From contig JABSSW010000041.1 of assembly GCA_018902385.1 (NCBI GenBank), forward strand, positions 62,001 through 126,000: DNA of 64,000 nt. The letters run 5' to 3'. Origin of the DNA: Physcia stellaris. Its lineage: Eukaryota > Ascomycota > Lecanoromycetes > Caliciales > Physciaceae. Made by a program: the position numbers and the translations under genes. The notes beneath the pieces are model-generated. The model searched no databases. It was not told where the DNA came from and worked only from the letters and a program-made list of their open reading frames with translations. This document shows, piece by piece, positions 1 through 61,990 of this stretch (the stretch's first letter is position 1; each line of letters opens with the position of its first letter).

Positions 1-539
1 ATATATTTTTTTACGTTGATAAGATTCACTGTTGATACGATTGAATATTCTCTAAATGAACACAACGCAATTGTTTTTATGAATAAATACGATACGATAC
101 ATCAATCGAGTCTCGAAATCCGATAGAAATTCCGAAAAAGAACAAAATTTCAAAATTTCGAACAAATTCGATCGCTGATTCGATCGAGCTCAATCTTATC
201 ACGTTGAAATTATCTTTTTTGTGATGACTTCAAGATCGATTTTGAAGTTTTTATATCTGTCGTAAACATTGAAATGACAAAGCATTTAAATCGATTCAAT
301 AAAAAAAAAAAAGCAAAAATCGACAAAACACAAAAAAAATCGAATCGTCGATTCTTGCATTCAAAAACGAAAACATTTCATGACTTTTCCGAATCAAGTT
401 CGCAAAATCTTGAAAGATTCTTGAAACAATATTTTATTTTCAATTTTGATACAACAGAAAATTTCAAAAATTATATGAAAATTGATCATCGAATCAAACT
501 TCAAATTCGAATTTGTCGACTTAATTCGATTTGCAAGTC

Positions 540-930
540 GAAAATCTCGACTTGAATCAAGTTCAAATTTTCAATTCAATTTCAAAGTTTGATTTGATCA
601 AGTTTCAAACTCAACTTTGAAACTTGCATTTGATTTGAAAATAACTTCATATATTAATTATAGTATAGAATTTTCTTAAAATAGAAAATTGTTGATAAAT
701 GCATTACTTTTCTGCATTACTTTTTCTTCAAACGTAGTGTTTACTTCAAATTTCAATATTTAAAAAAATCAAGTCAAGTCAAGCAAATCAAGTCAAGCTT
801 CAAATTCGATCACAAAGTTTGACTTGATGTCAAAACAAATTTCAAACTCAATGTTCAAAGTTTGATTTGATTTTTTCGAATCAAATTCTTGATTTTTTCA
901 AGTTCTCGACTTGACGCGATCAATTTAATT
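540..930. repeat. CAAGT/TTTGA low-complexity tract with many short inverted repeats
   Basis: The text is dominated by TCAAGTC, CAAACTT, AAGTTTGA and their complements, for example the CAAGTCAAGTCAAGC run near 770-785 and TTTGACTTGA near 820. Many short self-complementary pairs result. It looks like the remnant of a pentanucleotide or minisatellite repeat. It carries no convincing open frame. Confidence 0.5.
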
Positions 931-1364
931 ATTATTATTGTCTATATCAATGCAATCGTTGTTTTTCTTGATTTATTATGCAAATAAAATTTCTTTGATT
1001 TTTTTATTCTATATTATCTTTCAATCATCAAATTCTCGTACGATTAACATTAAACAATATGTCGTGAAATCAATTCGAATTTTTGCTCGATCGAACGATG
1101 AAACTTGTCAGTCTTTCATCGAATTTTTTTTTTCTCAATCACGTTTTTCTCGACGCGATCTATTTATGCGCTCGCACGTTTGAACGATGAAAATTTCAAA
1201 TCTCGTGTCTCATATGTAATCATGTCTTTTTCGTTGATTTCTAATTTTTTGTCTTTTGTCTTGTTTGTTTAATCTAACATTTATCGCGTAAAAATTTCAA
1301 ATCGTTCATAACTCAATGAATACATTGAAAATTGCATTCGGATTTGAGTTCTGATCTATCGAAC

Positions 1365-1745
1365 TGATACAATATCAACGAAATCTCGAAACTTGATGAA
1401 AAGCTCGAAATACAAAGACTTAAAATTCTTTGTAAAATCGATCGTTGATTCGATCGAGTTTCATCATTTTTTTTAATTGCATTTCTTGCATCGATTTCAG
1501 TTTTGATTTTGAAATTTTCTCACGCGTCAGATTCATTGAGAAGACAATACGATATCAACAGAAATCTCGAAATTCGATAAACATTTCGAAAAACAACAAT
1601 TCAAAATCCGATATAAAATCAATCGTTGATTCGATCAAGTTCAATCTTATCACGTTTCAATTGCAAATTCTGCGTCAATTGCCAAATCGATTTCAGATTT
1701 CTCATACATGAATCTTTTGTCGACAAATCGATACGATATCAACGA
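1365..1745. repeat. Two adjacent decayed ~181-bp satellite units
   Basis: This is the clearest fossil pair of the satellite. The two units share, in order, a 'gatacaatatcaacgaaatc'-type start, 'ctcgaaa', 'ttcaaaat', the 'atcgttgattcgatc' anchor (1,441 and 1,622), and a 'gatttcag' segment. Against preserved units at 62-64 kb, most differences are C-to-T or G-to-A changes. The last C of each CC/CCC run, next to a purine, is usually still C. Confidence 0.6.
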
Positions 1746-3099
1746 ATTTCCGAAACATAGTAATTGTCTATTTCATCAATCGCTCGTTCGATGAAGACGT
1801 TTCGACTGTAAAAATAATTCAAATTCTTTGATCGATTGTGCAAAACTGTTTTCGAGATCGAGCTGAATTTCAATTTACGCTCGATACGAAGTTTGATAAT
1901 TTTCTTCTCGAATTTCTATGACACGACATCGCGAATTTCGTCAACGCTATATCAATCGTTTGTATATCGAACAAAAGAAATCGTGATCGTGAATTGTGTT
2001 TCTTTCTTGCATATGAAAACATGTTGAAATTAAATAAATCATTTTTTGAAACTTTCTTGACCTTCTTTTTCCAAAAAAAAAACAAAGAAACAACAACAAA
2101 GAAAACAACTCACATCGAAAATCCAATCGTCAATCTTTGACGTGAAAAGACAGAATATTTCAAGAATTTTCCGAATCAGATCCGAAAACACTTGTAACAT
2201 GATTGAAGCAAAACTCTTTTATTACTATATACACAACAACGATTCAATAAATAGTATCAAATCAATTATGATTTTTATCGAATTATTTTGCAAATAAAAC
2301 TTATTTGATGAAAATTTCGAAAATAAAATTCGAAAATTTAAAACTAAAATTACACAATCAGCGACTCACTCAATCGAAATCATTTTTATGTCTTCTCAAT
2401 TGAAATTGTTACACTGATTTCGATCAGATTTCACGCTTTTTATGAGTATATCGTTTCGTGAAAATTCGAATCAAAATCAACGAAAATTTCCGAAATTTGT
2501 AACAATTTCGAAATACAGAATTCGGAAAATTTGAAATCAGTCGTTATTTCGATCAGATTTCATTATATCATTGTTTATCTATATACAAATTTGTTCGAAA
2601 TTTTTTTAAAAAAAATTCTTTCGAGCGATTTCAAACACAAATTTGACAATAACGAAATTTTTGAAATTTTAAAATTATTGCAATAATCAATTGATTTTTG
2701 TCATTTTTGCAACGTTGAAATGCGTTTATTCTGTTTTACAATTTCGATTAAATGAGTAAAAATCATATGTGATTGTTGATTGATGTGTAAATTGCGAAAA
2801 AATTGAACAAAAATTTTGATGTTTTTCGTCAAAATCAATTTAACTCAATGAGATAATAAAATTTTCAAAGAGAAAACGATGTACTTTTTTTTATAAAAAG
2901 TGTTTTATTTCGCGCTGATTTCACATTCGGATTGACAATTTTCACGAATATAATAATTGTCGAAACATTGTCACGATATCGACAAAAACTCGAAATCGAA
3001 AATGAAAATGCGATATATAAAATGAATCAAATGATATCAAATCAATCGCTGATTTGATCGAGAAACTATGCATGAACAAATCAGATAACAAAATCAAAC

Positions 3100-4094
3100 G
3101 AACAACAAATATCATGAAAAAAAAAAAATGTGATTTTCCGTTCGTGAATTGTTTTCAATTTAACACGACGTCATAAAAATCAACATGATGTTGATTGTTT
3201 TTCATTCATTCGTCTTTTGTTGAAAATTCGAATGATAATAAAAACGTTTCGCAACGATTTGTCGCTTTCGTTTCATGTGACTTTTAGAATTAGAATTCGC
3301 GCTAATCTGATCGAGATTTCGAAATATCTTAAAGTGAAACTATCGATTTTCCAATTCGTAATTTTGACGTTATTAGAGTCGACATTGTCGAAAGTCTTTT
3401 TTTTTCTTTTTCGATCATGAATATCGAACGAAAAAAAGACAAAAGAAAAAGACAAAAAAATGATCAAAAACGAATTCGAACTCTCGACGTCAAACAATTC
3501 GAATTCGAGATTTGTCGTTTTAATCACTGAGTTATTCGATCGATTATTGATTTCAAATTTCAAAATTCTAATATATATATATCAAACTCGCAACGAAGAC
3601 GAAAACAGTCTGCAAAATATGACAAATCGTGTGCATTTTTCACATTTCGACATATTTTTCGTCAAAACAACAACAATTGTTTCAAACTTGTAATATATTC
3701 GTCGTTTATCGCGAAATCGAGCGAACGAATTCTCGATGAACTCTTTCAAAATTGACGTTAACTCGATTGAATGATAATATGTTTCAAAACTGACAAAATA
3801 CAAATTTCTCATATCGATGAATAAAATTTCTTATTCGAAATCTTCTTTCGAAGCGATTCTCGCTCTCGCGAAACTCAGTTCGAAAATTCTTTCATTCTCA
3901 TTTTCTGTCAAGAATCTATTTTGCCGTACAACAAGAATCTTTTCGATCGAAATATTCGATTCTTTCGACGATTCACGTTATTGTTCGAAATAATTGCGAA
4001 AATAAAATCCGAATTGAATGCGAAACATGCATTGTCGATGTAATCATCTTTTACATCGTTTATCAATCTGTTATCACATTCATTTGTTCATTCA
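3100..4094. other. Gene-free AT-rich decayed DNA
   Basis: Short overlapping open frames occur on both strands (3,217-3,812), but they are rich in Ser, Phe, Ile and Lys, contain no motif I recognise, and follow the local dinucleotide bias. I see no promoter, splice or terminator signal that would support a gene. Confidence 0.5.
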
Positions 4095-6450
4095 TCAAAA
4101 TGAACAGACAGATAGATAAATGAACGAAGAAATCAATAAAAAGTTGAAAAAAAAAAAAAAAAAACAAATATATAAATTGAAAAATAAAAAAATAAAGCGA
4201 TAAAAAGATAAAAAGATACTACGAATTAACGAGACAGAAAGATAAAAAGTAAAGAAATAAAAAAATAAAGAAGTGCTACGAGATAAAAAAAATAAAGAAA
4301 TAAAAAAAAAAAAAAAAACTAAAAAAGATAAAAAAAAAAAAATAAAGAAAAAGACAATAAGAAAGTAAAAAAATGAAAAAATGAAAATGAAAAAATAAAA
4401 AAAAAAAAAAATAAAAAGTAAAAAAATAAGAGTTTTAAAAAATATCGCACAAGATAAAAAAATAAGAAAAAAAAAATAAAAATAAAAAAACAAAAAAACA
4501 CAAAGATGAAAAGATAAAAAAATAAAATAATAAAAAGAAAAAGAAATGAAAAAGTCAAAAAATAATACGAGACGAAAAGATAAAAAAAGTCAAAAGATAA
4601 AATGATTGAAACATAAAGAAATACTATGAAATAAAAAAAAATAAAAAATAAAAAGTGAAAACAGATAAAAAATCAAAGAAATACTACAAAATAATGAAAT
4701 AAAAAAACTTCGTAAAAAGTGATTTCGAATGATCGAATCGTATTGTTGAAAATTCTATCTATCGATCAACAAAAGACGATATATATACACGTTCGATTTG
4801 TTGTTGTAACGTGTACAACGACAATTTGATACATCGCATGTCATGCGTATGTCGCACATGCGAATGTATTTTATTGTTGACGAAATCATTAATTTTACGA
4901 TATAACGATTTGATGTTTCGAGTTTGTATAACTCGATGTTTCGAGTTTGTATAGTCTGAAAAATAGAATGTTATCGCTGTTTCGAATGAAAGATAAAAAA
5001 ATGAACAAATAAAAAAATAAATAAAAAAATAGAAAAATACTACGAGAAAGAAAAATACAACGACAAAAAAAATAAAGAGATAAAAAAATGAAAAAATAAA
5101 AAAATGAACAAACAAAGAATGTATCGCATTCAGAATTCAGATTAACGAAACATTGCGAATCGAATCTCGATCAAATTATATCAAGCAATTCGATCATTTC
5201 GAAAATCAACTTGATCAAATCAACAACAAATTTTCGATTCAATTCGAAATGCATGTTCGTATTTTCGAACGTGCTCCGAAATGCGTGTACGATTGAACGA
5301 ATTGATTGATCATATAATCGAAAATTTGCAAAATCGTGAATTTTGCAAAGTTTGATTTAGTCATATCATCATTTCTGCTATATCGTTCTGATGTCATATT
5401 TCTTGAATATCAAAAAGACATCACAAGATAAAGAAATAAAAAACTAAAAAGATAAAAAAATAAAAAAATAAACAAATTACGAAATAAAAAGATAAAAAAA
5501 TATTACGAAATCATCAGATAAACAAAAAGAAAATTCGAAAAATCGAACAGTGAAAAAATGAAAAAATAAAAAGATAAAATTATGAAAAAAAAAAAAAAAA
5601 AAAAGACGAAAAGATCAAGAAATGAAAAAATGAAAAATAAAAAAATAGAAAACGAAAAAAATAAAAAAGTAAAAAAATAAAAAGAAACTGTCGAATGAAA
5701 CGATGAAAAAGTTCGAAAATCAGAAAATAAAAAAATGAAAAAATAAAAAAATGATGAACAAAAGAACAAAAAAATAAAAACAAAAAAATGAAAAGAAAAA
5801 AAAAACTAAAAAGATAAAAAAAACTGCGAAATAAAAAGATAAAAAAAAAATACGAACGTGCAAAAGTAAAAAAGAATTACAAATTAAAAAAAATGAAAGA
5901 TAAAAAGATAAAAAGATGTTTCGAAATAAAAAAACAAAAATGTCGAAAGACAAAAAGATAAAAAAAAAAAAAAAAATAAAAAGACAAAAAAACGAAAAAA
6001 TAAAAAAGTAAAGAAATATCACGAGATAAAAATGTGAAAAAATAAAGAAATGAAAAGATAAAAACATTGTAAAATGAAAAAATAAAAAAATGAAAAAGTA
6101 AAAAAATAAAGAAGTAAAAAGATATTACAAAATGAAAAAATAAAAAATAAAAAAATAAAAGAATGAACAACTAGAAAAACGAAAAAATAAAACGATAAAG
6201 AAATATCATTACGAAACAAAAAGATAAAAAGATGAAAAGATAAAAAGCTACAAAGATATAAAAACAGACATATAGAAAAGTAAAAAGATGAAACACTAAA
6301 AAATGAAAAGTTAAAAAGATAAAAAGATAACGAGACCGAAAAATAAAAAGATATCACGAAATAAAGAAATGAAAAAATAAGAAACTATCATCAAATAAAG
6401 CGATAAAAAGACAAAAAAATAGAAAAATAAAGAAATAAATAAACAACTGA
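4095..6450 (+). repeat. 2.3-kb purine-strand tract, (A)nGATAAAAA type
   Basis: The plus strand is almost pure A/G with scattered T: AAAAAGATAAAAAAATAAA and variants, interrupted by short inserts such as 'tactacgagac' and 'atactac'. Three dense blocks are visible, about 4,095-4,720, 4,985-5,115 and 5,425-6,450, separated by ordinary decayed sequence (4,720-4,985 and 5,120-5,420). The minus strand reads as long Phe/Leu/Ile/Ser frames, which are translations of the pyrimidine strand and not membrane proteins. It is probably an expanded and decayed microsatellite. The strand asymmetry over more than 2 kb is unusual. Confidence 0.8.
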
Positions 6451-9400
6451 ATAGTAAATGAATTGTCATGAAATATTTTCAACAAAAAAATCACTGTCGT
6501 AAGACAAATGATTAAGCGAGCGCAAAATGTTCATTTGTCAAAACGAAAAATTCGTAAACTGTTAATTTCTATTGATATAAAACAATATTTTATGTAAATT
6601 TTAAATTCGATTTCGATTGTTCGATACGTGCGATGTTTGTAAACGACAAATAACTTCGATGACGCGAAAATCGCGAAATTTGATCGAGTTTAAGAAATCT
6701 GAAAATCGAATACAATCGATTGTTTATTCGATTCGATTCAATCTTATCATCGTTCGTTTGCATTTTCTATCGACTTTGTTACGACTGTATTGACGTGATT
6801 TTGTTCTGATTTGACTTTGATTCATCTGATACGATGTTGTGAATATGTGTTTCAAATAACAAAGAGTTGAAAGTCTGTTTGCATCAACGTGTCTGTTATG
6901 TCAACAATTATCGATATTCGAAACGTGAAAATGAAAAAAAATTCACAATAATCCAAATGAAGTTCGAACTCTTATCGCGAAAAGTCATTAATCACGTGTC
7001 ATTCGAACTTTTCTCGTCTAAGATTTTTTCATTCGTCTAAATCAAACAGTGAATTTCGCACGCAAATCGAATTTATATCGTCTCAAACGATTTTATCTGT
7101 TCATGATACTCAACAAAATGTGAATGCAATCGATGATATACGATTTGAATTGACGATTGATGATTGAATTTTTATCATCAATCACATATATCTGATTCAA
7201 CAATCACGAATCAAAGTTTCGTGAAACACAACGAAAACGAAACGACGTTTGCAAAAATCTGTCAATCTTGAGAAAAAAAAATTGCATTGATTCGAATATT
7301 GAAATCATGAAACAGCGTGACTTTCAAGTTTGTAAATTTCATTCTCGACGATTTTTTGACGAGCGAAAATTGACTTGATTTCGTATTCAATCGTGTATTT
7401 TTTTCTATCAAGTAAAAAGAATTGTAGAAAATGCTAAAGAATATTGATGTGCTTGTATATACATTCACGATTGTTTATCAATCACGCGAAAGTTGTGATT
7501 TTCGTCTATGATGAAATTGCAATTTCAATTTATCGTCGCATGTTCGACGAAAACGATGCAAAATCAATTTGAATTCTTTTTCAAAAACAAATTCATCGTT
7601 TTTCTGAACATGTCGACAAATGAAAAAAAAAATGATTGATGTTTTCGTGATCACAAAAATTCGTTTTTTGTCATATGTATCATTCATCGCAACAGATTCG
7701 TTGAATGTTTTTCGTGACATGTCGATGAATTCGATCGTGAACATCACGTCAAGCAAACACGACATTGCTGCGAAAAATCGACAGCTTCGAATGTTTTCAA
7801 ATATTCAAAAAAATTCGTCGAACGATCAACGATCGTGTGTAAGTGATCAGAAATGTTGCAAACAATCGATCGATGATCGAAACATGTTGAACAACAAAAA
7901 TAAAATTCAACGATTCGAAAACGAATCGTATCGTAAACGATTGAGCAAAATCATCAATCTCGAAATCTATTTCTCGATAAATGAACGAATGATTCAATTT
8001 GAATGTGTCGATCGATTGAATCGCGAAACAATCATCATCACGAGAAATCTCGTTGTACGACGAAAAAGAATCGTTGAAATTGATTGTCTCGATTTCGTCG
8101 AACAAAACATATCGAAAAATAGCAATTAAACATATCAAATCAGTGATTATGCTTGATCGTTGTTGTCGAATCATTCGATAAAATTCATCACGCAATTGAT
8201 GATTTCACGATCATTTGACGATTCTGAATTCGAAAACGACAAAAACATTTCATCGTCACGAATGAAAATCGAATTGATAATGTCGAGCGAAAACAAACAT
8301 GATCGAAAACACAACTGAACGTAAATTTGTTGAACTTGTCGTCATGTCGACACACAAAATTCGATGATTTTGAAATAACGATTGTGCGAATTCGTTTGCA
8401 CATGCGAACGAATCACTGTGTCTTTCTGATGTCGAATAATATTCAGAAAAAGATCGAAATCAAGAAACAAACACATGATTTCAAACGAATTGAAAGTATT
8501 GTCGTGATATGCGTACTTCTGACAAGTAGAACAATTGTAATCAGACATGTCGAACATTGATCGTTTGTTTGTTGATTTCTGTCAATTGAATCGTGAATGA
8601 TGTGATGTCATCAATACTCAACGAAAGCAAAAGACAACGAGAATTTCAACTTACGAAAATTTCGAGCTGTGCGAAGAATTGTCACAATCAAATAATCGAT
8701 CATCGCGATCAATTTTAGTCGAAAGATGAATTTTAGCCGATCGTGTGTATGTACGAAACAATGAAAATCGAATTGCAATCAAGAAACACTATTCTTGAAT
8801 GTAAGTTGTAAAGATCGCAACAGAATAATCATGTCAAACTTCGAAATTGAAATTGAAAATCAAGAAAGATGAAAAAAATTCAATTTTGCGAAAAAGAAAA
8901 ATCGACGATATATAACAATCGTTCAAAAACGAATTGATTGATTATTTTACTTTGATGAATTGTGTCAAAATTCACGCATTGACAAAACAAAAATCGCGTA
9001 ATTCAAGTCATGCATACGTTTTTGCCGAAACAAAATTCAGATGCTTGAAAAATGTCAAAAATGAAACGAAAAAACATCGTACAAAATTTGAGAATTTAGT
9101 TTCAAAGAGAAATCACATTTGTTCACAAAATTGAAACGCGAATGTGTTTTTGAAAAATCGATTTGTTTCGAGCGTTTTCATATATGTCTGCAATTCGATT
9201 CGCATAAACGACGAGTTTGATTTCGAATTCTATCAATACGCAACTTTCAGAATTCAGTTTTTTTGATTCGAAAAACGATCGATGATTTAACAAAATCGAT
9301 TATCTTATCATCAGATTCTGAGACGTCTTTCAAGTCATGCATTGTCAACATCGTGAATCAATATTACGTTTGAATCGATCATTCTCGATCTTGATCGAAT

Positions 9401-11150
9401 ACAAACAATGACAATTCACAAACACGATTAGCGATAAACAAACAAAATCGTGCATAAATGACTTTGTATTGCGATCAAGCAAATGCAAACTGTATGCAGA
9501 AAAATTTCTCGAAACATGAGTGAAAAGTCATAACAGCAATTGATTGATATTTGTCGTCGAGAATGCAAAAAAATCGCTTTGTGATCGTGCACGACGAAAA
9601 CAAACAAAAAATGACGTGATTGAAAAGTTCGTGTTATGAAATTGCAAGCTGATCTGAACAGATGATCATGTAACAAAACATTGAAAATTCGAAACGAGAA
9701 TTTGAAGTCGTTGCAAGCTTCTGACTGTTCGAATGCATTTTCTGAAAAAATCTGCAAAACGAAAAGTCACAGAAATGATTTGATAACATCGATTGATAAA
9801 CGTGACAGATAAAAGCGAGTCAAACATCGTGCACAAGAATGTCGACATTCGCGTACGCTTGATATCTGTGACGTGAAAAAGTTGCAAATGAAACGAAAAT
9901 GAAAAGTCAATTGATCGAAAATGATGTATGACGATCAAATCAAAAAATCTGATGATCAATAATAGAATTTTAATCAGTTTCGTAACGATATCAAAACTAA
10001 TTTGAACAAATTTTGCTGTCGTTGATTGATGAAACAGCAAACGAATTTGAATGTGTCGATGAAATCGAATCGACAAATGATGATCGACTGAAAAACATCG
10101 CTTGAGAAAATTCGATTCGAAATGTGCAAGACAAAAAATGTAATTTGAAAAAAATAATGAAAAGAAATAATTTGAACGATGATGATTTATGAAATGTGCT
10201 AATGTTGTGTATTTTTTCATTGTCGTGTGCAATTATCATGATGTTTTGAATTCGATCGATTTGTAAATTTTCTGCATGAGCGAAATCAACAACTCGACGA
10301 AGTCGCTTTGAGAATCTGATTGATTTTTCTGTCTTTGCGATCGAATTCTGAAACGAAAAGAAAAGAACGAAATCTCATGAGAAGATGAAAACGCCGAAAA
10401 AAACCAAAAAGTGAATGAACGAAACAAAAAAAAAAAAAAAAAAAAAAAAAAATGAAAAGAGTGAAAGTATTGATCTTTTATTTAACGATAAAAATCAGTT
10501 TTCTCAAGTCTGTTTGAATTTGTTATTTCTGTATTAACATTCACGTTTAGTCTGAACAAAACTTGATCGTGCGATCGAAAATCTTTCACGAATGATGTTA
10601 TGATTGAAAATGTCAAACGAAAAGTTGTGATCTGAGAAATACAAATTGAAAATGAGAAGAAACGAGTGATGACAAATCGAAAAATGCAATTTAGAAATAG
10701 ACAGTTCACGAAATGTAAATTCATGATAACTTAAATCTTCGTCTGATTTTGTGAAATGTGACAAGCGACAAAAATCGAATATTCGATGATGTGATAAATA
10801 GTAAAATTCAATTACTGTTTGTCAAGAATTGATTGAATGATCGACAAATGTCGATATTGATTTGTCAACGAGTTGAAAAATCGAGCGACAAACGAAATTC
10901 GAACTTTGACTGAACGTGAACAATGAAATTTGATTAATAATCAAATCATTTCATCTTGATTTCTGAAAGATGATAAAATTCGACGATTGAAACATTACAA
11001 ATTCAAACTGATGCGAAAAATATCAGACTTGATCGTGAATACATTATTGAATTTGACTGACAATGCATTGTGAAATGTGAAGAAAAATGAATGACAAATC
11101 TTGACGATTGATGATTTCGAAATGACTGTTCGATGATTGATCATGAAATC
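6450..11150. other. Gene-free decayed DNA with one satellite relic and a poly-A run
   Basis: The longest open frames (7,620-8,129 plus; 9,666-10,232 minus) have no recognisable domain and the low-complexity composition expected from TCGA-rich, CC/GG-free DNA. A satellite-like anchor ('ttcgattcgattcaatctta') lies near 6,725-6,750. An A-run of about 25 bases lies near 10,427-10,451. A hand count at 8,221-8,400 gave 28 cytosines followed by a purine and 3 followed by a pyrimidine. The stretch may contain transposon remains eroded past recognition, but I cannot name any. Confidence 0.5.
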
Positions 11151-11156
11151 TGATCG

Positions 11157-13475: not shown

Positions 13476-13479
13476 ATTG

Positions 13480-14030: not shown

Positions 14031-14039
14031 TACAAACAC

Positions 14040-16115: not shown

Positions 16116-16116
16116 T

Positions 16117-16396: not shown

Positions 16397-16399
16397 GAA

Positions 16400-19350: not shown

Positions 19351-19359
19351 CAATTGATG

Positions 19360-20580: not shown

Positions 20581-20589
20581 GACTTGTTG

Positions 20590-41678: not shown

Positions 41679-41679
41679 A

Positions 41680-47930: not shown

Positions 47931-47939
47931 GTTATTATT

Positions 47940-49716: not shown

Positions 49717-51715
49717 TTGATGAAAAAAATGTTGCAAAAAAAATAAATATCGTGATTTCTGAATTTGATATTGCGATTACTGAAACAAATGACTGTTTGA
49801 ATGTAAAAAAAATGTAAATATGACAATTATTGCAAACATTGATGTAAATTTTGCAAACTTGCTTGATGAAAAAAATGTTACGAAAAAAATAAATATCGTG
49901 ATTTCTGAATTTGATATTGCGATTACTGAAACAAATGACTGTTTGAATGTAAAAAAAAATGTAAATATGACGATCACTGCAAACATTGATGTAAATTTTG
50001 CAAACTTGTTTGATAAAAAAATGTTGCGAAAGAAATAAATATCGTGATTTTTGAATTTGATATTGCGATGATTGCAAAAAATGTTTGTTATGATGTAAAA
50101 AAAAATATAAATATGACGATCATTGCAAACATTGATGTAAATTTTGCAAATTTGTTTGATGAAAAAAATGTTACGAAAAAAATAAATATCGTGATTTTTA
50201 AATTTGATATTGCGATTGTTGAAACAAATGATTGTTTGAATGTAAAAAAAAATGTAAATATGACGATCATTGCAAACATTGATGTAAATTTTGCAAATTT
50301 GTTTGATGAAAAAAATGTTGCGAAAAAAATAAATATCGTGATTTTTGAATTTGATATTGCGATGATTGCAAAAGATGTCTGTTATGATGTAAAAAAAAAT
50401 GTAAATATGACGATCATTGCAAACATTGATGTAAATTTTGCAAACTTGTTTGATGAAAAAAATGTTACGAAAAAAATAAATATCGTAATTTCTGAATTTG
50501 ATATTGCGATTGCTAAAACAAATGACTGTTTGAATGTAAAAAAAAATGTAAATATGACGATCATTGCAAACATTGATATAAATTTTGCAAACTTGTTTGA
50601 TGAAAAAAATGTTGCGAAAAAAATAAATATCGTGATTTTTGAATTTGATATTGCGATGACTGCAAAAATGTTTGTTATGATGTAAAAAAAAATGTAAATA
50701 TGACGATCATTGCAAACATTGATGTAAATTTTGCAAACTTGTTTGATAAAAAAAATGTTGCGAAAAAAATAAATATCGTGATTTTTGAATTTGATATTGC
50801 GATTGTTAAAACAAATGACTGTTTGAATGTAAAAAAAAATGTAAATATGACGATTATTGCAAACATTGATGTAAATTTTGCAAATTTGTTTGATGAAAAA
50901 AATGTTGCGAAAAAAATAAATATCGTGATTTCTGAATTTGATATTGCGATGATTGCAAAAAAAATGTCTGTTATGATGTAAAAAAAATGTAAATATGACG
51001 ATTATTGCAAACATTGATGTAAATTTTGCAAACTTGTTTGATGAAAAAAATGTTGCGAAAGAAATAAATATCGTGATTTTTGAATTTGATATTGCGATTG
51101 CTGAAACAAATGACTGTTTGAATGTAAAAAAAATGTAAATATGACGATCATTGCAAACATTGATGTAAATTTTGCAAATTCGTTTGATAAAAAAAATGTT
51201 GCAAAAAATGTAAACATTGCGATCATTGAATTTGATATTGCGATTATTGAAACAAATGACTGTTTGAATGTAAAAGAAAATGTAAATATAACGATCATTG
51301 CAAACATTGATGTAAATTTTGCAAACTTGTTTGATGAAAAAAATATTGCGAAAGAAATAAATATCGTGATTTCTGAATTTGATATTACGATTACTGAAAC
51401 AAATAATTATTTGAATGTAAAAAAAAATGTAAATATGACGATCATTGCAAACATTGATATAGATTTTGCAAATTCGCTTGATAAAAAAAATGTTGCGAAA
51501 AAAATAGATATCGTGATTTCTGAATTTGATATTGCGATTGTTGAAACAAATGACTGCTTGAATGTAAAAAAAAATGTAAATATGACGATCATTGTAAACA
51601 TTGATGTAAATTTTGCAAATTTGTTTGATGAAAAAAATGTTGCAAAAGAAATAAATATTGCGATCGTTGAATTTGATGTTACGATTGCTGCAACAAATGA
51701 TTTGTGAAAAGCTTT
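49717..51715 (+). repeat. 147-bp satellite, ~13.5 units, partly dimeric
   Basis: The landmark GATGTAAATTTTGCAAA recurs at 49,841, 49,988, 50,134, 50,281, 50,428, 50,575, 50,721 and 50,868, a spacing of 146-147 bases. Two unit types are visible: A contains GAAACAAATGACTGTTTGAA, B contains ATTGCAAAAATGTTTGTTAT. Units 3, 5, 7 and 9 are type B and alternate with A, forming a ~294-base dimer core (about 50,012-51,030) flanked by A units. Common unit differences are CTTG/TTTG, TTCTG/TTTTG and AAAGAA/AAAAAA, which are CpT-type sites. Because 147 is divisible by 3, both strands stay open over several hundred codons. The array ends at about 51,715. Confidence 0.95.
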
Positions 51716-51816
51716 TAAACATAAAAAAGCAATTTGATTGCTTTGATTAATGCATAATGCATCTTGAAAAAATACAAAAATGTAAACATAAACAAAAACA
51801 TGCGATCAATGAAAAC

Positions 51817-51900
51817 TTTCGACATTGCGACACGCGTATAATTTAAATTTTTAAAACAAAATTTAAAAATTTAAATTACACGCGTGTCGCAATGTCGAAA
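51817..51900. repeat. Near-perfect hairpin, ~39-bp arms, 6-base loop
   Basis: The left arm 51,817-51,855 (TTTCGACATTGCGACACGCG, then an A/T stretch) is the reverse complement of the right arm 51,862-51,900 with one mismatch (a G/A transition). The loop is ACAAAA. It lies about 100 bases past the end of the 147-bp satellite. It could be a small foldback element, a MITE relic or a breakpoint palindrome. No coding capacity is present. Confidence 0.9.
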
Positions 51901-51904
51901 TTTC

Positions 51905-53717
51905 ATTAATCGAATCATGTTATGATTGCAAATAATTGTTATTTGTTTTTGTTAATTTGAAAATTTGAAAAAACATCACTTGAATGAATTTTGAATGTCG
52001 CAATATTGCGCAATGAAATATCTTTCAACATTGAATATACAATATATTATAATCAGATTTAAATTGTGAATCAAATGTAAAAAAACATTTTCATAAACGA
52101 AATTATGATTTCATTTTGAAAATTGCGTTTGATATGACGAGATAATCGAAATGACTGAAAAATTTTTTGAAATGTCGAAAACTTCTAAGTCCGACGAAAA
52201 TCATCTCAATCTGAACTCATTCAGCAATATGATTTGAAATGATTCGATTTCGAAAACTTATTGATATCGTTCGAAATCTCGTTCGAAAACATTACAATTT
52301 GCTTTTTATTCAATCATTATCTCAAATATTTTGCATTCATTTCATGAAATCATTTTAGAAAATTTTCACGCTCGATTGCTGCAGAGTTTTTCGTCTTCGA
52401 ATGATTCGATTTTGAGTTTTTGTTAATTGCATAATCAATCAATATATATGTACATATACGTGCATGCATAATCAATAATTTAATGCAATATTCATTGAAA
52501 ATCAATAAATTAATGCAATTTCACTAGAATATCAATAAATTAATACGAATTATATTGAAAATATTCAAATAAACTTTCAATTATTTTCGAGCAGTTTGTT
52601 TATATAATTCATGAAATTTCTCGTTCTTTTCGTCTTTATTCATGACAAAACTTTTCTGTTAACTAGTTAAATAATCAATAAAACACACATACACATACAG
52701 AAAATGTCATTTGCGTTCGAAAACTATTTTCGATTTTATGCGTTTACAGATTTCGAAATTACTTCTCAAGATTTCTGAGAAATACTCAATATTTTGTCGA
52801 TAAATGTCGAAGAGAAATTCGTTTTTGTCAGAAACGAGTGCAACAATTGAAAATCGCGTTGAGAAATGATGTCGACAATAAATTTTTCTTATTTTTAATT
52901 TCATTAATTATTGATTAATATGTCATACAATTTGTCAATTACGTCGATGACGCAATGTTGTATAACAACACGTCATTTGACGACAATTTGACGTATTAAA
53001 TTGATTCGAACGACAATTGACAAATTATTCACGTCGATACAACTGTAAATACTTTTTTTGTTTTTTCAATAATAAATCATTAACAATTGCTATAGTTCGG
53101 TCAAAATTCTGTCAATATTGACATTAATACAACTACAAATGTTGAAAATTACGAGTCGAACGAACGTCGTTTTCGAAACGTAAATAATTTTTTTTTTTTT
53201 GTAATTTTTTGTTAATTATTTACTAATTTTGTTTAGCGATTTAAAGGTTCAAAAAATCGCTCAAAATCGACTCGTACTAGTCATTCTGAAACTAGATTGT
53301 CGACTAGAATAGTCAAGAGTCAAACAATGAAGACAGAAATAAATTATTCTTGTATTAATTTTTATTTTATTATTAACGTTATTAGAAAATCTTCACTAAA
53401 ATGCAACATTGTCTCGAGCAATTCGAGATAAATCAATGTGTCATTTCACGTGATTTTTGACTAATTTCTATAGAAATGTCGTGAGAAATTGAAAGTTCTT
53501 AAACGTAATTACTAGATAGTTTCTGTAAATAGTTTACGCGAAATATTCAACATATTTCGTCAATTCATGACGCAATTAATTTTTTGTTTCTTTTTAAAAA
53601 TTCTTCATTGATTTGTGATTGTCATGTATTTTTTGCAGAATTTTAGCTTGAAAACTGATACTTTTAAAAATTTATTCGTAAAACTATTTCGTTGATATAA
53701 ATTGTAAATACAAAAAA
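51905..53717. other. Gene-free AT-rich DNA downstream of the TLH pseudogene
   Basis: At 52,430-52,570 the word AATCAATAAATTAATGCAA recurs about four times as a decayed ~35-base repeat. At 53,235-53,261 an 8-base inverted repeat (AGCGATTT / AAATCGCT) is followed to 53,330 by a small islet with several CTAG/CTAGT words and more CT/AG than its neighbours. I cannot tell if the islet is the TLH 3' region or a small element. No gene is recognised. Confidence 0.4.
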
Positions 53718-54072: not shown

Positions 54073-56270
54073 CTAATCTTTTAAATTTTTGCATTTTGAC
54101 GACGAATGTGAAAAATAATTTGACGATTTGTATATTTTACAAAATATACAACGTGTGATCAATCGTTGAATTTTTTTGATAATTTTCGAAAATTGTTCGT
54201 TGATTATTTCGTTTTCGATTTGATTTTTCATGTGTTGTAATAAATCGTCGTCTATATCGAATTCGTCGTCGTTTGTATCGTTGTTTTCAAGAAGTTCGAA
54301 ACGATTTCGAAATTGATATAATTGTTGAAATTTGTCGAATTTTTGTTCGTCGTCAGAATTATCAGAAAATTCAACATCGATATCGTTTGATTTTAACAAT
54401 CGATTTTTCGACGTTGTTGTGTTTTCATTTTCAGAATTTTCGTCGTCGTCAGAATTTTCGTCGTTCGAAATTTCGTCGTCGTTTGAATTTTCGTCGTCGT
54501 TTGAATTTTCGTTTGAATTTTCGTTTGATTTGTCAATTGAATTCGCACTGTTTGACAATTGTATAAATTCGTTGTTGAATATTTCATTTTTTTCAACGTT
54601 TGTCATATCAATTTCGCGTGTATTTTTGTTTTGATGTTCTTGAAATATTTTTTTCGTTTGTTGTTGATTTCGTAAATTACGTTTTTGTTGTCGAATATTT
54701 TGTGTTGAATATATTTCGCGACAACGTTTCGATTTTTCGTCGTTAATATTGTTATGAAATTCGTCGTTTTGAACGAAATCGTCAATTGATAAAATGAAAT
54801 TCATTGTTGTTGTTTTTTGTTTTCGACATTTTCGAACATATTTGTTGTATTCGTTTTGAACAAACGAATCGTACATGTTCAATGTTTTGTTTTTTCGAAC
54901 AATTTCGTCGACAATTTCGTCGTTTGAAGACGATGATATATCGTATAAATTGTTGTCATCGATTATAAATTTCGATTGTTTTTTCGTAACGTTTTGAGTC
55001 GATTTTTTATCGTGATAATAATCGTACGTTTTTTCGTCGATTAAATCGTAAAATTCTGAACTGTTTACGAAATTTTCAATTGACATTATCATGTTTTGAA
55101 TCATTGTTTTGTTTTTGACGTTTTTGCGTGTTTGTTTGACATATTTTTTGTATTTTTCTTTTACAATTTTGTTTTGTTTGTGAAAAAATGTTGTTTCAAA
55201 TTTTGAATCGATATTTGAATTCGAAATCGAATCGTGACTCGATTTCTGTATAATATTCGACGAAATTTGATTATTGTCACGTTGACTTATATTTAACGTT
55301 GATTCGAATTGTAAATGCAAAGAATCGTTTAATTTTTGACGCGATAAATCGTTCGATTTGTCGATTGATTCGTTGTTTGATTCGTCATTTGATTCGTCGT
55401 TTGAATCGTTATTTAATTCGTCGTTTGAATCGCTATTTGATTCGTCGTTTGAATCGTCATTTGATTCGTCGTTTGAATCGTTAATCGATTTGTTATTTGA
55501 ATTATCGTTGAATTGAACGTTCGATTGTTGTTTTGATTCGTTGTTTGAATTTTTCAATTGTTTTTGTCGTTCTTTGTGAGAATTGTGAATTTTCATTAAT
55601 TCTGAAATCAATCTGTCGAAGTTTTGAATAAATTCGTAAATAATATGCATAGCGTGTATGCAATCTGTATCGAATATTGAAGATTTTTGACAAAGAAATT
55701 TCGAAAACGTTAAAGAATTCGAATTCGAATTCGATTTCGAAAATTCGTTAAATACGAATTCATCAAGAATTTTTTTATGACAAAACGCAATAGTTAACAA
55801 AACGTACAAAGACGTTGTTAAATATTGACATTTGTTATTTTTTCGTGTATTGTTACACAATTTTTGCGACAATAAACAATAATAACAAGAAAATTCTTCA
55901 ACGAGTAATTTGTTTTTCTTGATTTCGTCTTTGATATTCTTTGCTAAAACTTGAAAATCGAAAAGTTTTTCATGTTTACAATTTGACGTTTCGTGTAAAT
56001 GCATATCGTCAAATTTTCTGTGACGAAAACAATTGAAACAAAAATTCGAAAATTTTTCGTAATATCGTAAAAATTTCGATTCTTCGTGAAAATTCGACGA
56101 AATTTTCGAAATTTCGTTTGTTTTTTGTTGTTGTAATTCGTTGAATCGTTTTTCACATAAATAACAAAGATTTTGATTGTGTGAACACTTTTCAGTTTTT
56201 TTATTGTCGAAATAATTGTCGAAAACACGTCGTAAACATTTTTTTCTAATAAATATGCATGTAACATATT
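54073..56270 (-). other. Cys-rich and Asn/Asp/Ser-rich C-terminal part of the TLH pseudogene
   Basis: After lobe 2 the same frame gives CLRRVFDNYFDNKKTEKC and LCYLCEKRF, like the Cys-rich segment after RecQ lobes in TLH proteins. A long open run to 54,073 then has CFNCF...HE...C, a 643-codon stretch with many repeats of Asn-Asp-Glu-Ser-Asn (two blocks, ~55,350-55,510 and ~54,430-54,560), a likely disordered acidic insert, and CIFC...H...C near its end, a zinc-knuckle-like motif. The acidic blocks are coded by TCGTCG-rich DNA, an 18-30-base repeat. The family's tail is usually shorter, so the insert is a local expansion. Confidence 0.7.
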
Positions 56271-56325
56271 TTGATCGATTCGAAAACGTCGTTTTCTTTC
56301 GTTATTTTTCGATCGATTTTATTTT

Positions 56326-56811
56326 CTATTTTTCGTGATAGAAAATTGTAAGAAACGAAAAAATCGATGTTGCATTCTCGTTATTACGACCGGCTCGTCC
56401 GATTTGTTGATCGACAATAATCATTGATTCGTGTTTTGAAACGTGTAAAACGTATTTTATTGACGAATAATCGATTTCTTCGTTAAATGCTGAAGTAGCA
56501 ATTAAAATACGTTGATTATTGTCTTGAAAAAACGATTTTTGCGTCGATTCTTTGTCGTTTTGTGTCATTTTCGCGTGATAATACAATGTTTTGTATTTAC
56601 GTGCGAAATCTTCACATTGTTGTTTTTCTTTTGTATAAATCAATATTTTTTCGTCGTTTTTTAACGTATGATAAAGTTCTTGTTGAATACAATTTTTCAA
56701 ATCTTCAAATATATCGATATTTTGTTTGTGTTCTCGAACGATATATTTGATGTTATTTCGTGTCGTTGTTGTGTGAAATATTTCATATTTTTGAATCGAA
56801 AATTGCGTCAT
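56326..56811 (-). other. RecQ-like helicase lobe 2 of the TLH pseudogene
   Basis: 161 codons with RNNIKYIV (start of lobe 2), ILIYTKEKQQCEDFA (motif IV), YYHAKM, RILIATSAFNEEID (motif V; the family's AFGMGID, with both glycines replaced), VLHVSKHESM, and QQIGRAGRNNENA (motif VI, about 56,386-56,409). Motif VI is intact, with both arginines and both glycines. The underlying DNA there keeps CC and GG, which are rare in the surroundings. Confidence 0.9.
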
Positions 56812-57780
56812 TATTTTTGTAAAATTTCTGTTGTAAAACTTGCTGATAAAAATATCAATTGAATTTTATACAAATTGATTTGTGACAGATGTTTCATGAT
56901 ATATCGAAATTGTTTATGCAAAACAATCAAATGTGTTTCGTCGAAAAAAAGTCGAATATGTTTATTTTGTCGAATTTGTAACGATAAATAATCGTAAAAC
57001 GTTGAATTTTCGAATAAATTTTCGTAAAATATTAATTGCAAATTTGACGAATGTTGTGCGTTGTTTTCGAATAATTTTGCGTGAATATTGAACGTTTTCA
57101 ATCGTTTATTCATGTCGAATTTTAACGATACAAGTGCAACGTTACAAAGTTAATTGTTTTTTCGAAATAAATGACGAAAACATAAATAACAGACTTTTTT
57201 TCTGCTTCGATTCCTGCTCGAAAAACACATTCGAAACGTTATTTTCGATTGCTTTTATTGATTCGAATTGTGCGTTTGATTTAAACGTTGCGTTTGAAAT
57301 TTTGAAAAATCGTTGTAACGATAAATTTAAATCAAGAACGTTTTCGTTAACATCTCGTGTTAATAACGACGTATTGAAAGATATTTCATTTGACGTTTTT
57401 AATTTTTTGTTTGTTGTTGTAACGTTGTCGTCGTCGTCGTTCGAATTTGAACGAATACGTTTCGTAATCGAATTTCCGTTTAAATTAAAAAATTCTTGAT
57501 ATTTTTTGCAAAATTTCAACGCTTCGAGTTGTGCATTTTTCGATGTATTTATCAACGTATGTTGATCGCGTCCGTAATGAAATTGATTCGTTTTACGAGA
57601 ATGATTCGCTTGTATAAATTGTATTGATTCGTCGTTGTCAGAATTCGACGAATCGTTGTCATTGTAATTTGAAATCAAAATTCGTTCACGAATAATATAC
57701 GTCATAACTTGACGTAACATCGCGATTCGTAACGGCGTTTGAATATATTGTAACGATTTTAATTTAATAAAATCAGACAT
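56811..57780 (-). other. RecQ-like helicase lobe 1 of the TLH pseudogene
   Basis: The frame 57,780-57,142 includes QANHSRKTNQFHYGRDQ (the family's QAGHS...YGRS phrase), FKSNAQFESIKAI (RecQ motif 0, which holds the Q that contacts ATP) and SKQKKSLLFM at about 57,190-57,220. The last is the Walker A position, with Lys-Ser kept but the glycines lost. After a frame change near 57,140, ALVSLKFDMNKRL (motif Ia/Ib), FFDETH (motif II, the DExH box, near 56,945) and FLSASF (motif III) follow. Glycine loss in Walker A would abolish ATP binding if this is the true sequence. Confidence 0.85.
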
Positions 57781-57923
57781 TGATTCAGATGTGAATATTT
57801 TGTCGTTATTTTCGAATAAATGAATCGACGATAACGTTTTCGAATCTAAATAACGAATTTGTAAAAATTCGTAAAAAGATGCACGAACAGTAAATAATAA
57901 ACGATAATTTTGAAACGCGTTCG

Positions 57924-59273
57924 TTACAAAATCGAATATTTTTGCTTTTTTCGTTGTTTCGATTGATTTTTGTGATATCGTAAATTAAACATGATTAATT
58001 TCGATGTTTCGTCGTAAAAAACTTCGCGTAAACCCGTATGTAACGAGTTTTTGAATTTTGTTTTAATAATTTCTTCGCCACGAGCAAACGCTCCGGTTGT
58101 TAAATAAATAACAATTAATAACAATTTTAAAAAGTCTTTTCGATGTTGTAAATATATCGAAATTTGATTGTTATTAATTGTTGTATTTTTGCCGTGAAAA
58201 AACGATGAAATTCAGTCGTTGTTTTGAAAAAACGTCGAATAAAAAATTGTTTCAAATGCGAAAAATCTTGATTTTTCGTGACGTGTTCAACGAAATAAAA
58301 TTGATCTTTTTGTTCGTGTAAATCGTCATAAATTTCGTTAAGATTAATTGACGTTTCGAGTTCGTTTTTGTCGATTTGTAACAAATTTTCGAATAATTGT
58401 CGTTCAAGATCGTCAATTAATTGATTGAAAAATGTTCGTAATTTGTTGATTGAAATTTCAACGTTATCGTATCGAAGAATATCGTTAGAAACGTCTGTAA
58501 TTTTAGAATTTCCAGTTTCGTTCATCGAGATTTTTCGCGTTAAAGCTCGATAATTTTGTATTGTTTCGAAACAATTTCGTGAATCGTTTGATACGTGTTC
58601 GAGTAAATTTTCGTGAAAAAACGATGACAAGTTGAAATCATTATCGTCGTCGTCGTTTGCTTGATTGTTTCGATAATTGACGTACAACATGTAAAAATAT
58701 CGAAGCATGTAAAGAAGTTTGCTGCATAATTTTTCGATCATTGACGTTTTGATAAATGTTTTATCAACAGAACTTATTGATTTGCAAACAAAAAACGTAA
58801 CAACAATACTGTCAAACGTTGCGTGTTTGTCGAGTCGTTTTTGTTCTGTTTTTTGACGTAACAATTCAAACGTTAATCGAATAATACACGTTTTAATCGT
58901 TTGTTTAAATTCGTTTGTTGTTTTTTGTCGTCAATTTCTTGATTCGAGACAAAAGTTGCGTAATTAATCGAATAATTTTCGAAATTGTCGTTGTAATAAC
59001 GATTGCGAATAATTTTGATTTTTCGATTTCGATTGAATAATAAATATAACAGATTAAATCTGCAAACGTCGAATAATAATCTTGAATTGACGACGTATTT
59101 TGCAATTCTTGAAACGAATTCATTTTTTTGTTATGTAAAGCAATATCGATTGCTTTATCTGTATGTAACAATTGTTTTAATCGAATATCGAATTTTTGAA
59201 TTAATTCGTTTGATTCGATTGCGAGTTCAAGCGTTAATTCGTGTAAACAACGTAATTGTTCGTGTTGTTTCAA
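57924..59273 (-). other. Central conserved region of the TLH pseudogene
   Basis: Three frames succeed each other. 59,273-58,905 holds YYSTFADLICYIYYS, the counterpart of the family's 'W..LLCFVWRT'-type phrase. 58,864-58,127 holds RALTRKISMNETGNSKI and IINKLRTF-like text followed by LIDDLERQLFENLL, matching the family's 'LRTYG.KI' to 'LF.ELL' block. 58,124-57,924 holds TTGAFARGEEIIKTKFKN, then REVFYDE and LRYHKNQ, matching the family's 'G.P.RGTELL...RN' and 'YHK' phrases. Residue order and spacing agree with TLH proteins from memory; no search was run. Confidence 0.75.
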
Positions 59274-59415
59274 GAATTTTGTATTGACAAATTGTATTAA
59301 ATCGTCAATATTTTTGTTTTCGAGATATTCGTGAAAAATGATTGTTGTAAAAACAAATTGTATTCTTTGAATTGCGTCGTTTCGTTTCGTTGAATCGATT
59401 GCATTTTGATATCGT

Positions 59416-59998
59416 TTAATTGTTGATTATATTCGTTGATTTGATTTGTTTCGTCGTTTGTAAAATCTGTTTGTAACGTTGAATTTTGACGTGTAACGTT
59501 GATTTGATTGTCGAATAAAACAGCGAAAAATTTTCGATATCGATTTGTTGTAAAAATTTGCGCGTAAATACGTTCGAATTATAAAACGTTTCTGTTGATT
59601 GTTTTGTTTTTTTGTCATTGTGTTTTTGATTACAATGCATACGCATTTTTTTTCGTTACGTACAACATACGAACAACTTTTACACGAAAAAGCGTCGTTA
59701 TATGTGTACAAAAACGGAAAAAAATGCTTGAAATTTTGAGAAATTTCAATATCTTTCGTTGAAACAAGTGAATAATTTTTCAAGTCGTTTATAATTGATT
59801 TTTTTCGTTGAAAGTTAAATTTCGATGTTGAACGTTAGAATTGAAATGAGTAATCGATTTGTCGTTGTTTTCGTTGTTTATAACGACGTGACATTTTGTA
59901 CAAAAAACGATTTTGAATTCTTTATTGTAATAAAGAAAATCGTTAATTTGTTCAACGTTGTCAATAACGTTAGAATTGTTAATATCGTAAAAAGACAT
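59416..59998 (-). other. OrsD-like domain segment of the TLH pseudogene
   Basis: The N-terminal part (59,998-59,789) reads FLYYNKEFKIVFCTKCHVVI and later HF...QH, like the first Cys-x2-Cys...His...His unit of OrsD (PF12013, formerly DUF3505). The next frame (59,783-59,427) has DAFSCKSCSYVVRNEKK, and another (59,646 onward) begins MRMHCNQKH, together the pattern of the second zinc unit (C-x2-C ... M-R-x-H ... H). The frame changes between these parts; the first change falls at an A-run near 59,805, the second near 59,650. Confidence 0.8.
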
Positions 59999-60354: not shown

Positions 60355-60600
60355 TTGTATTTCGCGTATGTAATTCGTGTGAAACGTTGTACGTGTATAT
60401 GTGTTGTGTATATGTTGCGTGTATATATTTCGTGCGTGTGTTTCGTGTTTGTGTTTTGTGTATATCGTTTGAATATGTATGTTGTATGTGTGTTTCGTAT
60501 GTGTATTTTGTAAATTTGTTGTCAATATGTGTATCGTGTGTATGTTTCGTGTGTAAATGTGTGAAAATGTGAAAAATGTGAACGATTGAAAAAGAATTAA
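60355..60600 (+). repeat. GT/purine-pyrimidine alternating low-complexity tract
   Basis: Words GTGTATATGT, GTGTTTCGTG, ATGTGTGAAA and TTTCGTGTGT recur over 240 bases, almost all built from TG, CG and TA steps, so pyrimidine and purine alternate. No cytosine in the core precedes a pyrimidine. Short Cys/Val/Tyr-rich frames here are by-products. Confidence 0.8.
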
Positions 60601-60649
60601 AGAGAAAATTTCGTTGTTTATATATTGCAAAAAGAATAAAATTTTATTA

Positions 60650-61690
60650 TTAAATTTATTAAATTTATTCGTGCATGAATATTTATTTATTCATGCACGA
60701 ATATTTATTTATTCATGCACGAATATTTATTTATTCATGCACGAATATTTATTTATTCATGCACGAATTCTTTTTTATTCGTGCGAAAATTAAATTGATT
60801 CGTGTAAAAATTAAATTGTATTGTTAAAATATTAAATTTATTCGTGCATGAATATTTATTTATTGATGCACGAATATTTATTTATTCATGCACGAATATT
60901 TATTTATTCATGCACGAATATTTATTTATTCATGCACGAATATTTATTTATTCATGCATGAATTAAATTGATTTGTGTAAAATAAATTTGTATTGTTAAA
61001 TTTAATAAATGTATTCGTGCATGAATATTTATTTATTAAATTAAAATATATTCGTGCATGAATTAAAATATATTCGTGCATGAATTAAAATATATTCGTG
61101 CATGAATTAAATTATATTCGTGCATGAATTAAAATTATATTCGTGCATGAATTAAATTATATTCGTGCATGAATTTTTATTTATTTGTGCATCAATTAAA
61201 ATTTATTCGTGCATCAATTAAAATTTATTCGTGCATGAATTAAAATTTATTCGTGCATGAATTAAAATATATTCGTGCATGAATTAAAATATATTCGTGC
61301 ATGAATTAAATTATATTCGTGCATGAATTTTTATTTATTCGTGCATGAATTAAAATTTATTTGTGCATGAATTAAAAATATTCGTGCATGAATTTTTATT
61401 TATTCGTGCATGAATTAAAATTTATTTGTGCATGAATTAAAAATATTCGTGCATGAATTAAAATATATTTGTGCATGAATTAAAATTTATTCGTGCATGA
61501 ATTAAAATTTATTCGTGCATGAATTAAAATTTATTCGTGCATCAATTAAAATTTATTCGTGCATGAATTAAATTATATTCGTGCATGAATTAAATTATAT
61601 TCGTGCATGAATATTTATTTATTCGTGCATGAATTAAAATTTATTCGTGCATGAATTAAAATTTATTCGTGCATGAATTTTGTTGATTTG
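60650..61690. repeat. ~22-bp minisatellite, TTCGTGCATGAA core, with orientation switch and 173-bp super-period
   Basis: About 45 units. From 60,685 to 60,975 most units read ATTCATGCACGAATATTTATTT; from about 61,014 they read ATTCGTGCATGAATTAAAAT, the reverse complement of the core, so the array switches orientation. The phrase TAAATTTATTCGTGCATGAA or its near copy starts a super-unit at 60,668, 60,841 and 61,014, exactly 173 bases apart. Variants include CGTGCATCAA and TGTGCATGAA. No coding is seen. Confidence 0.95.
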
Positions 61691-61739
61691 ATATTAATAT
61701 TTTTGTTATTTTATTATTTCAATTCAATTAACGTTCATG

Positions 61740-61990
61740 TACAAATTTAGAAACGATTGCGTTATCGCAAAATTCTCGAAACTTAATTAAATTTTCGAAA
61801 TAAAAAAATTCGAAAAATTCGTAAAACATTAAACATTAATTCGATTTGACTAAACATTATTTTTTATTCTATTTTTAACGTAAATTTCAAAACTGATTTC
61901 AAATTTTCGATACGTCAAATATTCATTGAAAAAAAGCATCGATATCGCAAGAATTTCGAAATTTAATCGAATTTTCGAGTTATCAAAATT
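61740..61990 (+). repeat. Decayed boundary unit of the ~183-bp satellite
   Basis: This unit aligns with the preserved units to its right, but GCCGCTAACTCGATCCGG-type text has become ACATTAATTCGATTTGACT, CTGG has become CTGA, GGAACTTAG has become GAAATTTAA, and CACCGATACC has become CATCGATATC. Nearly all changes are C-to-T or G-to-A. From about 62,000 the text abruptly keeps CC and GG. Confidence 0.8.

Follow-up and report, generated by a model that had tools for sequence, protein, structure and literature searches.

We analysed a 64,000-nucleotide stretch of the Physcia stellaris genome (GenBank assembly GCA_018902385.1, contig JABSSW010000041.1, positions 62,001 to 126,000 of the forward strand), hereafter the window, most of which has lost cytosine before a pyrimidine (CpY): most heavily before another cytosine (CpC), then before thymine (CpT), with cytosine before a purine (CpR, comprising CpA and CpG) spared by comparison. 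Two blocks of decayed AT-rich DNA flank a younger long terminal repeat (LTR) element, and they are followed by an interrupted RecQ-like helicase gene and by a 184-bp satellite in which the decay comes to a sharp end. We consider it probable that the pattern reflects a C-to-T process akin to repeat-induced point mutation (RIP), with a cytosine methyltransferase of changed specificity (CpC > CpT >> CpG, CpA). The features on which the analysis rests are as follows, in window coordinates and with observed/expected ratios abbreviated as O/E.

1..35400, no strand: decayed AT-rich DNA, first block, with CC/GG almost gone and CT/AG low, enclosing a poly-A-rich block at about 4001-6500 (O/E table and C/(C+T) shares)
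31673..32083, + strand: 204-bp unit duplicated in tandem within decayed DNA (copy comparison)
35409..41875, + strand: LTR element with partial CpY loss (LTR pair at 88.8% identity, C/(C+T) shares, Pfam)
35409..35604, + strand: 5' LTR, with T or A at 7 of the 21 differences
41679..41875, + strand: 3' LTR, with T or A at 14 of the 21 differences
41876..53500, no strand: decayed AT-rich DNA, second block, containing a 147-bp tandem array at 49715-51700 (O/E table and C/(C+T) shares)
54076..59426, - strand: RecQ-like helicase gene in interrupted reading frames (six frame pieces, depleted in Pro, Gly and Trp codons)
56329..56865, - strand: C-terminal helicase domain of that gene, GRAGR motif retained (Helicase_C, E 6e-17; 4e-17 for a shorter piece)
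61722..62019, no strand: decayed edge copies of the 184-bp satellite (comparison with neighbouring copies)
62020..64000, no strand: little decayed interior of the satellite array (CC O/E 0.97-1.05; C/(C+T) 0.333 for CC and 0.252 for CT; internal comparison)

Loss of cytosine before a pyrimidine

Over the whole window, a 1-kb table gives O/E ratios of 0.15 for CC/GG, 0.49 for CT/AG, 0.41 for TA, 1.25 for CA/TG and 2.45 for CG. This bears out the depletion of CC/GG and CT/AG that a preliminary description of this DNA had claimed for most of its length, and adds a low TA that was absent from it. Its three hand counts were reproduced exactly on recounting: 28 CpR and 3 CpY with no CC at 8221-8400, 17 and 5 with neither CC nor GG at 45001-45180, and 19 and 16 at 36001-36120 inside the younger LTR element. 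For quantification we used a decayed set of 41.7 kb (1-4000, 6501-35400, 41901-49700 and 52501-53500; GC 0.302), which leaves out the poly-A block at 4001-6500, the LTR element, the 147-bp array and everything from 53501 onward. In this set CC+GG occurs 61 times against 1908 expected, with a range of 1821-2009 in 100 mononucleotide shuffles, and CT+AG occurs 1923 times against 4412 expected. The loss of CC is far heavier than that of CT, and the CpC > CpT signature is real, strong and far outside chance.

The 3' neighbour sets the outcome. The kept share of cytosine, C/(C+T), is 0.009 before C, 0.130 before T, 0.624 before A and 0.455 before G in the decayed set. Passing from the LTR element to the decayed set, it falls from 0.150 to 0.009 for CC (odds ratio 20) and from 0.393 to 0.130 for CT (4.3), and is practically constant for CA (0.605 to 0.624; odds ratio 0.92, p 0.17) and CG (about 0.453 to 0.455; 0.99, p 0.94). 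Neither the 5' neighbour nor the +2 base has much influence on CpT retention, the kept share being 0.119 after A, 0.154 after G and 0.144 after T; after C it drops to 0.006, since the preceding cytosine then forms a CpC target of its own. The extent of decay differs between the old flanking DNA, the satellite and the younger LTR element, which is nested within decayed DNA and has higher CC and CT inside 35409-41875 than around it. Retention of CA is also uneven along the window, being lower in the poly-A block 4001-6500 (CC 0.010, CT 0.122, CA 0.350) and in 53501-60000 (0.019, 0.077 and 0.459, respectively).

The preliminary description had further reported a strong excess of CG and TCGA. The excess of CG stands, as its O/E ratio attests, with the refinement that CG and TCGA are a residue of decay and not a gain: TCGA occurs 1712 times against 1764 expected from its own trinucleotides. 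This expectation and a simulation together rule out an active gain of either. Removing CpC at a rate of 0.97 and CpT at 0.70 from the LTR element gave a root mean square error (rmse) of 0.06 over the 16 dinucleotide ratios, with CG at 2.74 (observed 2.54) and TA at 0.34 (observed 0.34), so that under this model high CG and low TA would both be by-products of CpC and CpT loss. From the same start, the CpA, CpA+CpT, CpG, uniform and CpC-only models fitted less well (rmse 0.32-0.54). From random DNA of 48% GC the CpC+CpT model reached 0.12 against 0.38-0.72 for the five alternatives, the CpA, CpA+CpT, CpG and uniform models lying at 0.59-0.72. The CpC and CpT rates were derived from the kept shares in the DNA itself and tried at nine scalings, like those of the other models, and the fit is a statement of sufficiency, not a blind prediction. 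Classical RIP thresholds (TpA/ApT of at least 0.89 and (CpA+TpG)/(ApC+GpT) of at most 1.03) were applied to 127 scoring windows: none passed both, none reached the TpA/ApT value (range 0.16-0.85), and 18 satisfied the substrate criterion. The model errors, the absence of any RIP-scored window and the high CG agree with the earlier statement that CpA-type RIP and CpG decay are both incompatible with this DNA.

Repeat copies as records of mutation

Differences between repeat copies give the same rule. An element of this kind inserts with two identical LTRs; the present pair is now separated by one gap and 21 substitutions, every one of the latter a transition and 19 of them at CpY. Per site, differences are found at 5/6 CpC, 4/5 CpC-or-CpT, 10/22 CpT, 1/32 CpA and 0/16 CpG (CpY versus CpR, Fisher p 8e-9, with the one substitution that has a gapped neighbour set aside). 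The 204-bp tandem pair shows 24 transitions and 2 transversions, with differences at 12/13 CpT, 6/29 CpA and 4/26 CpG (p 1e-6). In the satellite, the edge copy at 61909-62019, compared with the next three copies, has lost 5/5 CpC, 4/9 CpT, 0/7 CpA and 1/20 CpG (p 5e-5), and the edge copy at 61722-61908 has lost 7/9, 8/14, 2/14 and 6/24, respectively. The boundary of the decay falls within the satellite, since dense changes end at 61966 and the first CC past 61700 stands at 62013. Even in the interior, leave-one-out comparison of subfamily 1 finds changes at 8/38 CpC, 5/49 CpT, 0/45 CpA and 0/72 CpG (p 9e-6), and in subfamily 2 CpC is raised (19/86; CpY versus CpR p 0.02); the piece at 62645-62971 (327 bases) was dropped from the copy set by a length filter. 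The satellite as a whole (61860-64000) consists of two subfamilies with CCGG- and ACCGGT-rich units and reaches the end of the window.

The excess of C/T differences at CpY between copies, the 3' rule, the rank order, the near-saturation of CpC and the small effect of the 5' base are thus direct observations. Tabulated by 3' neighbour, CpY leads in the LTR pair, the satellite edge and the 204-bp pair, with neither CpA nor CpG as the main context, so a C-to-T process governed by a 3' pyrimidine, first proposed from composition, is borne out by substitutions as well. The accompanying claim that CG and CA are spared holds relative to CpY only: some repeats carry CpA and CpG changes, so these sites are not immune.

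Other features of these repeats deserve mention. The 147-bp array has about 13.5 copies of two interleaved sequence types, with long open frames on both strands; leave-one-out comparison there finds changes at 22/301 CpA, 4/104 CpG, 4/4 CpT and 0/0 CpC. The open reading frames (ORFs) of the LTR element resemble repeated C2H2 fingers, the best Pfam match (E 0.002) lying under its cut-off, and Pfam scans of five LTR-element ORFs revealed no polymerase domain.

A RecQ-like helicase gene under decay

Together the six pieces of the helicase gene encode 1725 residues, of which 1 is Pro, 5 are Gly and none is Trp. Among the closest solved relatives are the Bloom helicase (E 7e-11) and RecQ1 (E 4e-8), and a weak DEAD match under its cut-off (E 0.03) lies in an adjacent frame. 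The frame breaks are either introns or frameshifts. One open frame nevertheless runs for 742 codons (54076-56301), against a maximum of 326 in 200 Markov sequences per order. CpT is kept at 19/615 third codon positions versus 119/1276 first and second positions (p 2e-7), and the corresponding controls show no difference, neither ten ORFs from decayed DNA (71/558 versus 169/1332) nor four LTR ORFs (148/378 versus 261/694). CpA is reduced at third positions as well (164/411 versus 409/788, p 1e-4), more mildly, which means that the codon effect is not wholly confined to CpT; CpG shows no deficit (313/537 versus 455/804), and the difference at CpC (0/159 versus 9/583) is not significant (p 0.22). 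Read from codon positions, this suggests that the helicase protein stayed under selection while the mutation pressure acted. Seventeen CC/GG dinucleotides remain in 53501-60000, three of them clustered at the conserved GRAGR motif within a span of ten bases (56390-56399).

How a gene might survive such pressure can be gauged from the genetic code. If codons are used uniformly, nonsense changes make up 0.130 of the coding changes at CpA, 0.042 at CpC and 0 at CpT, so the damage predicted at CpC and CpT consists chiefly in the loss of Pro, Gly and Trp codons and seldom in stops. If a RIP system with such an inverted target is at work, a gene that it targets could lose these residues and yet be held open by selection. 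The gene is like the telomere-linked RecQ families of fungal subtelomeres in its RecQ-type C-terminal helicase domain, its low GC and its place beside tandem repeats, here tandem arrays and the satellite; a subtelomeric RecQ family of 34.7% GC is described in Mycosphaerella graminicola (PMC4522978; here and below, published work is represented by excerpts of the cited papers). It is unlike those families in being almost devoid of Pro, Gly and Trp. The window contains no telomere repeat array that would mark a chromosome end (TTAGGG 0, CCCTAA 1).

Origin of the bias and comparison with known systems

A RIP-like process would act as follows. C would be changed to T on both strands, with the target picked by its 3' neighbour. 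A cytosine-5 methyltransferase of the RID or DIM-2 type that favours a 3' pyrimidine may mark or convert the cytosine, deamination would follow the methyltransferase step, and repeated DNA (transposons, helicase copies, satellite edges) would recruit the enzyme. Both cytosine-5 methyltransferases and RIP typically read the 3' base. That the system is a repeat-directed defence, whose methyltransferase reads a 3' pyrimidine (CpC, then CpT) and largely ignores CpA and CpG, leaving standard RIP indices negative, is a more specific proposition to which we give an even chance.

Several observations weigh against a RIP-like process. First, the 184-bp array, though repeated, is little decayed in its interior, and its subfamily 2 shows no excess of CpT changes (4/84) over those at CpA (8/81) or CpG (5/124). 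Second, in the 147-bp array, where leave-one-out comparison omits near-50:50 sites and variable columns were therefore counted as well, these unpolarised columns include 16/24 CpA, 14/14 CpT, 4/9 CpG and 1/1 CpC. Third, most of the decayed DNA lacks a recognisable transposon: Pfam detected none in eight ORFs of the two decayed blocks, which hold 116 ORFs of at least 80 aa (91 + 25); with two LTR-element ORFs added, the ten gave just two weak and unrelated matches (E 0.07 and 0.3). Fourth, no methyltransferase was seen.

The best surviving alternative, which we regard as unlikely though far from negligible, is that the identical CpY bias is directed at a class of chromatin instead of at repeats, for instance through slow deamination of methylated CpC and CpT, or poor repair, in heterochromatin or subtelomeres over long times. 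It is favoured by the near-uniform decay across tens of kb without recognisable repeats, and by the fact that the selected-looking helicase gene is affected as strongly as non-coding DNA. The sharp boundary in the satellite, between 61966 and 62013, speaks against it, although homogenisation of the array interior could also produce such a boundary. The window data are compatible both with this chromatin-class bias and with a RIP-like process aimed at repeats.

Editing by an APOBEC/AID-like or DddA-like cytidine deaminase that acts before a 3' pyrimidine would be compatible with LTR differences that are transitions without exception. Known cytidine deaminases read mostly the 5' base. A 5'-set target is the hallmark of the APOBEC/AID type, and the near-equal retention of CpT after A, G and T does not display it. 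Because the 5' neighbour matters so little, we rate a deaminase below a methyltransferase-coupled process and consider it improbable.

Base-calling or assembly error at modified cytosines, by which CpY would be read as TpY, draws on the fact that context-specific sequencing errors occur at modified bases. The codon-position pattern in the helicase, if read as selection, speaks against such an artefact, since CpT is kept threefold more at first and second positions there and the ten control ORFs are flat; the 742-codon frame is moreover still open. We hold this explanation to be very improbable.

Equally remote are classical CpA-type RIP, decay of methylated CpG, ultraviolet damage and mere AT-richness, which could invoke the low GC of the decayed set, reminiscent of RIP-bearing repeat blocks in other fungi (e.g., 32.9% GC, PMC10998396), and the 18 scoring windows that satisfy the substrate criterion, but which founder on the poor fit of the CpA, CpA+CpT, CpG and uniform models, on TpA/ApT values that never reach 0.89, on composition-matched shuffles that retain some thirtyfold more CC/GG and, for ultraviolet damage, which is ruled out, on an enrichment of TC (O/E 1.49).

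Set beside known systems, the decay in the window has clear similarities to and differences from RIP, a premeiotic process of the sexual phase that is aimed at duplicated DNA and spares single-copy sequence. As in Neurospora crassa, where RIP depends on RID/DIM-2, C-to-T change affects both strands, is directed by the 3' neighbour, saturates, yields an AT-rich product and has struck an LTR element. Two hallmarks are shared, namely the dominance of transitions among repeat-copy differences (21/21 in the LTR pair, 24/26 in the 204-bp pair) and a target preference set by the 3' neighbour, whereas a third, preference for CpA, is absent (1/32 in the LTR pair). The order in N. crassa is CpA>CpT>CpG>CpC, with CpC likewise last in Trichoderma reesei (PMC5496416), unlike the CpC>CpT>>CpG, CpA of the window, of which no scoring window passes the RIP thresholds. 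A study of ten genomes describes CpA, CpT and CpG signatures and ties the CpA and CpT ones to RID-class enzymes (PMC4352252), and a kingdom-wide k-mer study finds a common CpA preference among RIP-like defences (PMC12543289). A related case is the CpT-leaning RIP of Magnaporthe oryzae, Botrytis cinerea, Sclerotinia sclerotiorum and Anisogramma anomala, in which CpT is a main or second target (PMC4352252, PMC10998396); there, however, CpT accompanies CpA and CpC is not among the signatures reported in those excerpts, whereas in the window CpC comes first and CpA is spared. CpT-to-TpT changes also dominate in RIP-capable control fungi (PMC7882544). The CpG decay of Basidiomycota and Tuber resembles the present case as a 3'-neighbour-dependent C-to-T change in transposons (PMC4352252), but CpG is here kept and relatively enriched, and the hallmark of methyl-CpG decay is missing, C before G being unchanged between the LTR element and the decayed set.

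Involvement of CpC has precedents. Repeats of Stagonospora nodorum show CpC depletion alongside CpA (PMC2621366, in which RIPCAL defines CpC and CpT indices), Monilinia shows CpC-to-TpT double changes alongside CpA (PMC8959702), and for Rhizoctonia solani AG8, where the authors place their emphasis on CpG, a table has CpC as the commonest single class of C/T single-nucleotide polymorphism, at one per 214 bp (PMC4014442). In the excerpts covered from the open-licence PMC literature, which leaves out most subscription papers, we came across no description of RIP that is directed chiefly at CpC and spares CpA. If the process is RIP, CpC-first decay with CpA spared is a novel variant of it, and the target dinucleotide would not be fixed but able to shift from CpA, the Neurospora favourite, to CpC, the least favoured. 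It would then provide a naturally occurring comparison for locating the parts of RID and DIM-2 that read the 3' base. Surveys based on TpA/ApT would miss such CpC/CpT loss, since not one of the 127 scoring windows reaches the threshold, and some genomes classed as RIP-negative may merit re-scoring with CpC and CpT indices.

Taken together, the LTR element with its finger-like ORFs, the RecQ-like gene next to tandem repeats and the AT-rich decay would point to a filamentous ascomycete. Scans for further DNA of this organism or of a relative yielded neither: one pattern scan of genome contigs gave no match, two DNA patterns scanned over viral contigs gave none, and two protein patterns over viral contigs gave 30 and 7 pattern matches, none of them confirmed. 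Several further repeats were noted. An 8-bp repeat (AAACAATA; 60030-60298, about 35 copies, 92% matches) lies upstream of the helicase frames, and a 22-bp repeat (unit TTAAATTTATTCGTGCATGAAT; 60659-61680, about 47 copies) is partly self-inverted. Four arrays of 16-18-bp units are built on the palindrome TGCATGCA (11213-11492, 13540-13638, 16117-16395 and 19719-19839), and, with both strands of the decayed set counted, GCATGC is present 88 times where 36 would be expected.

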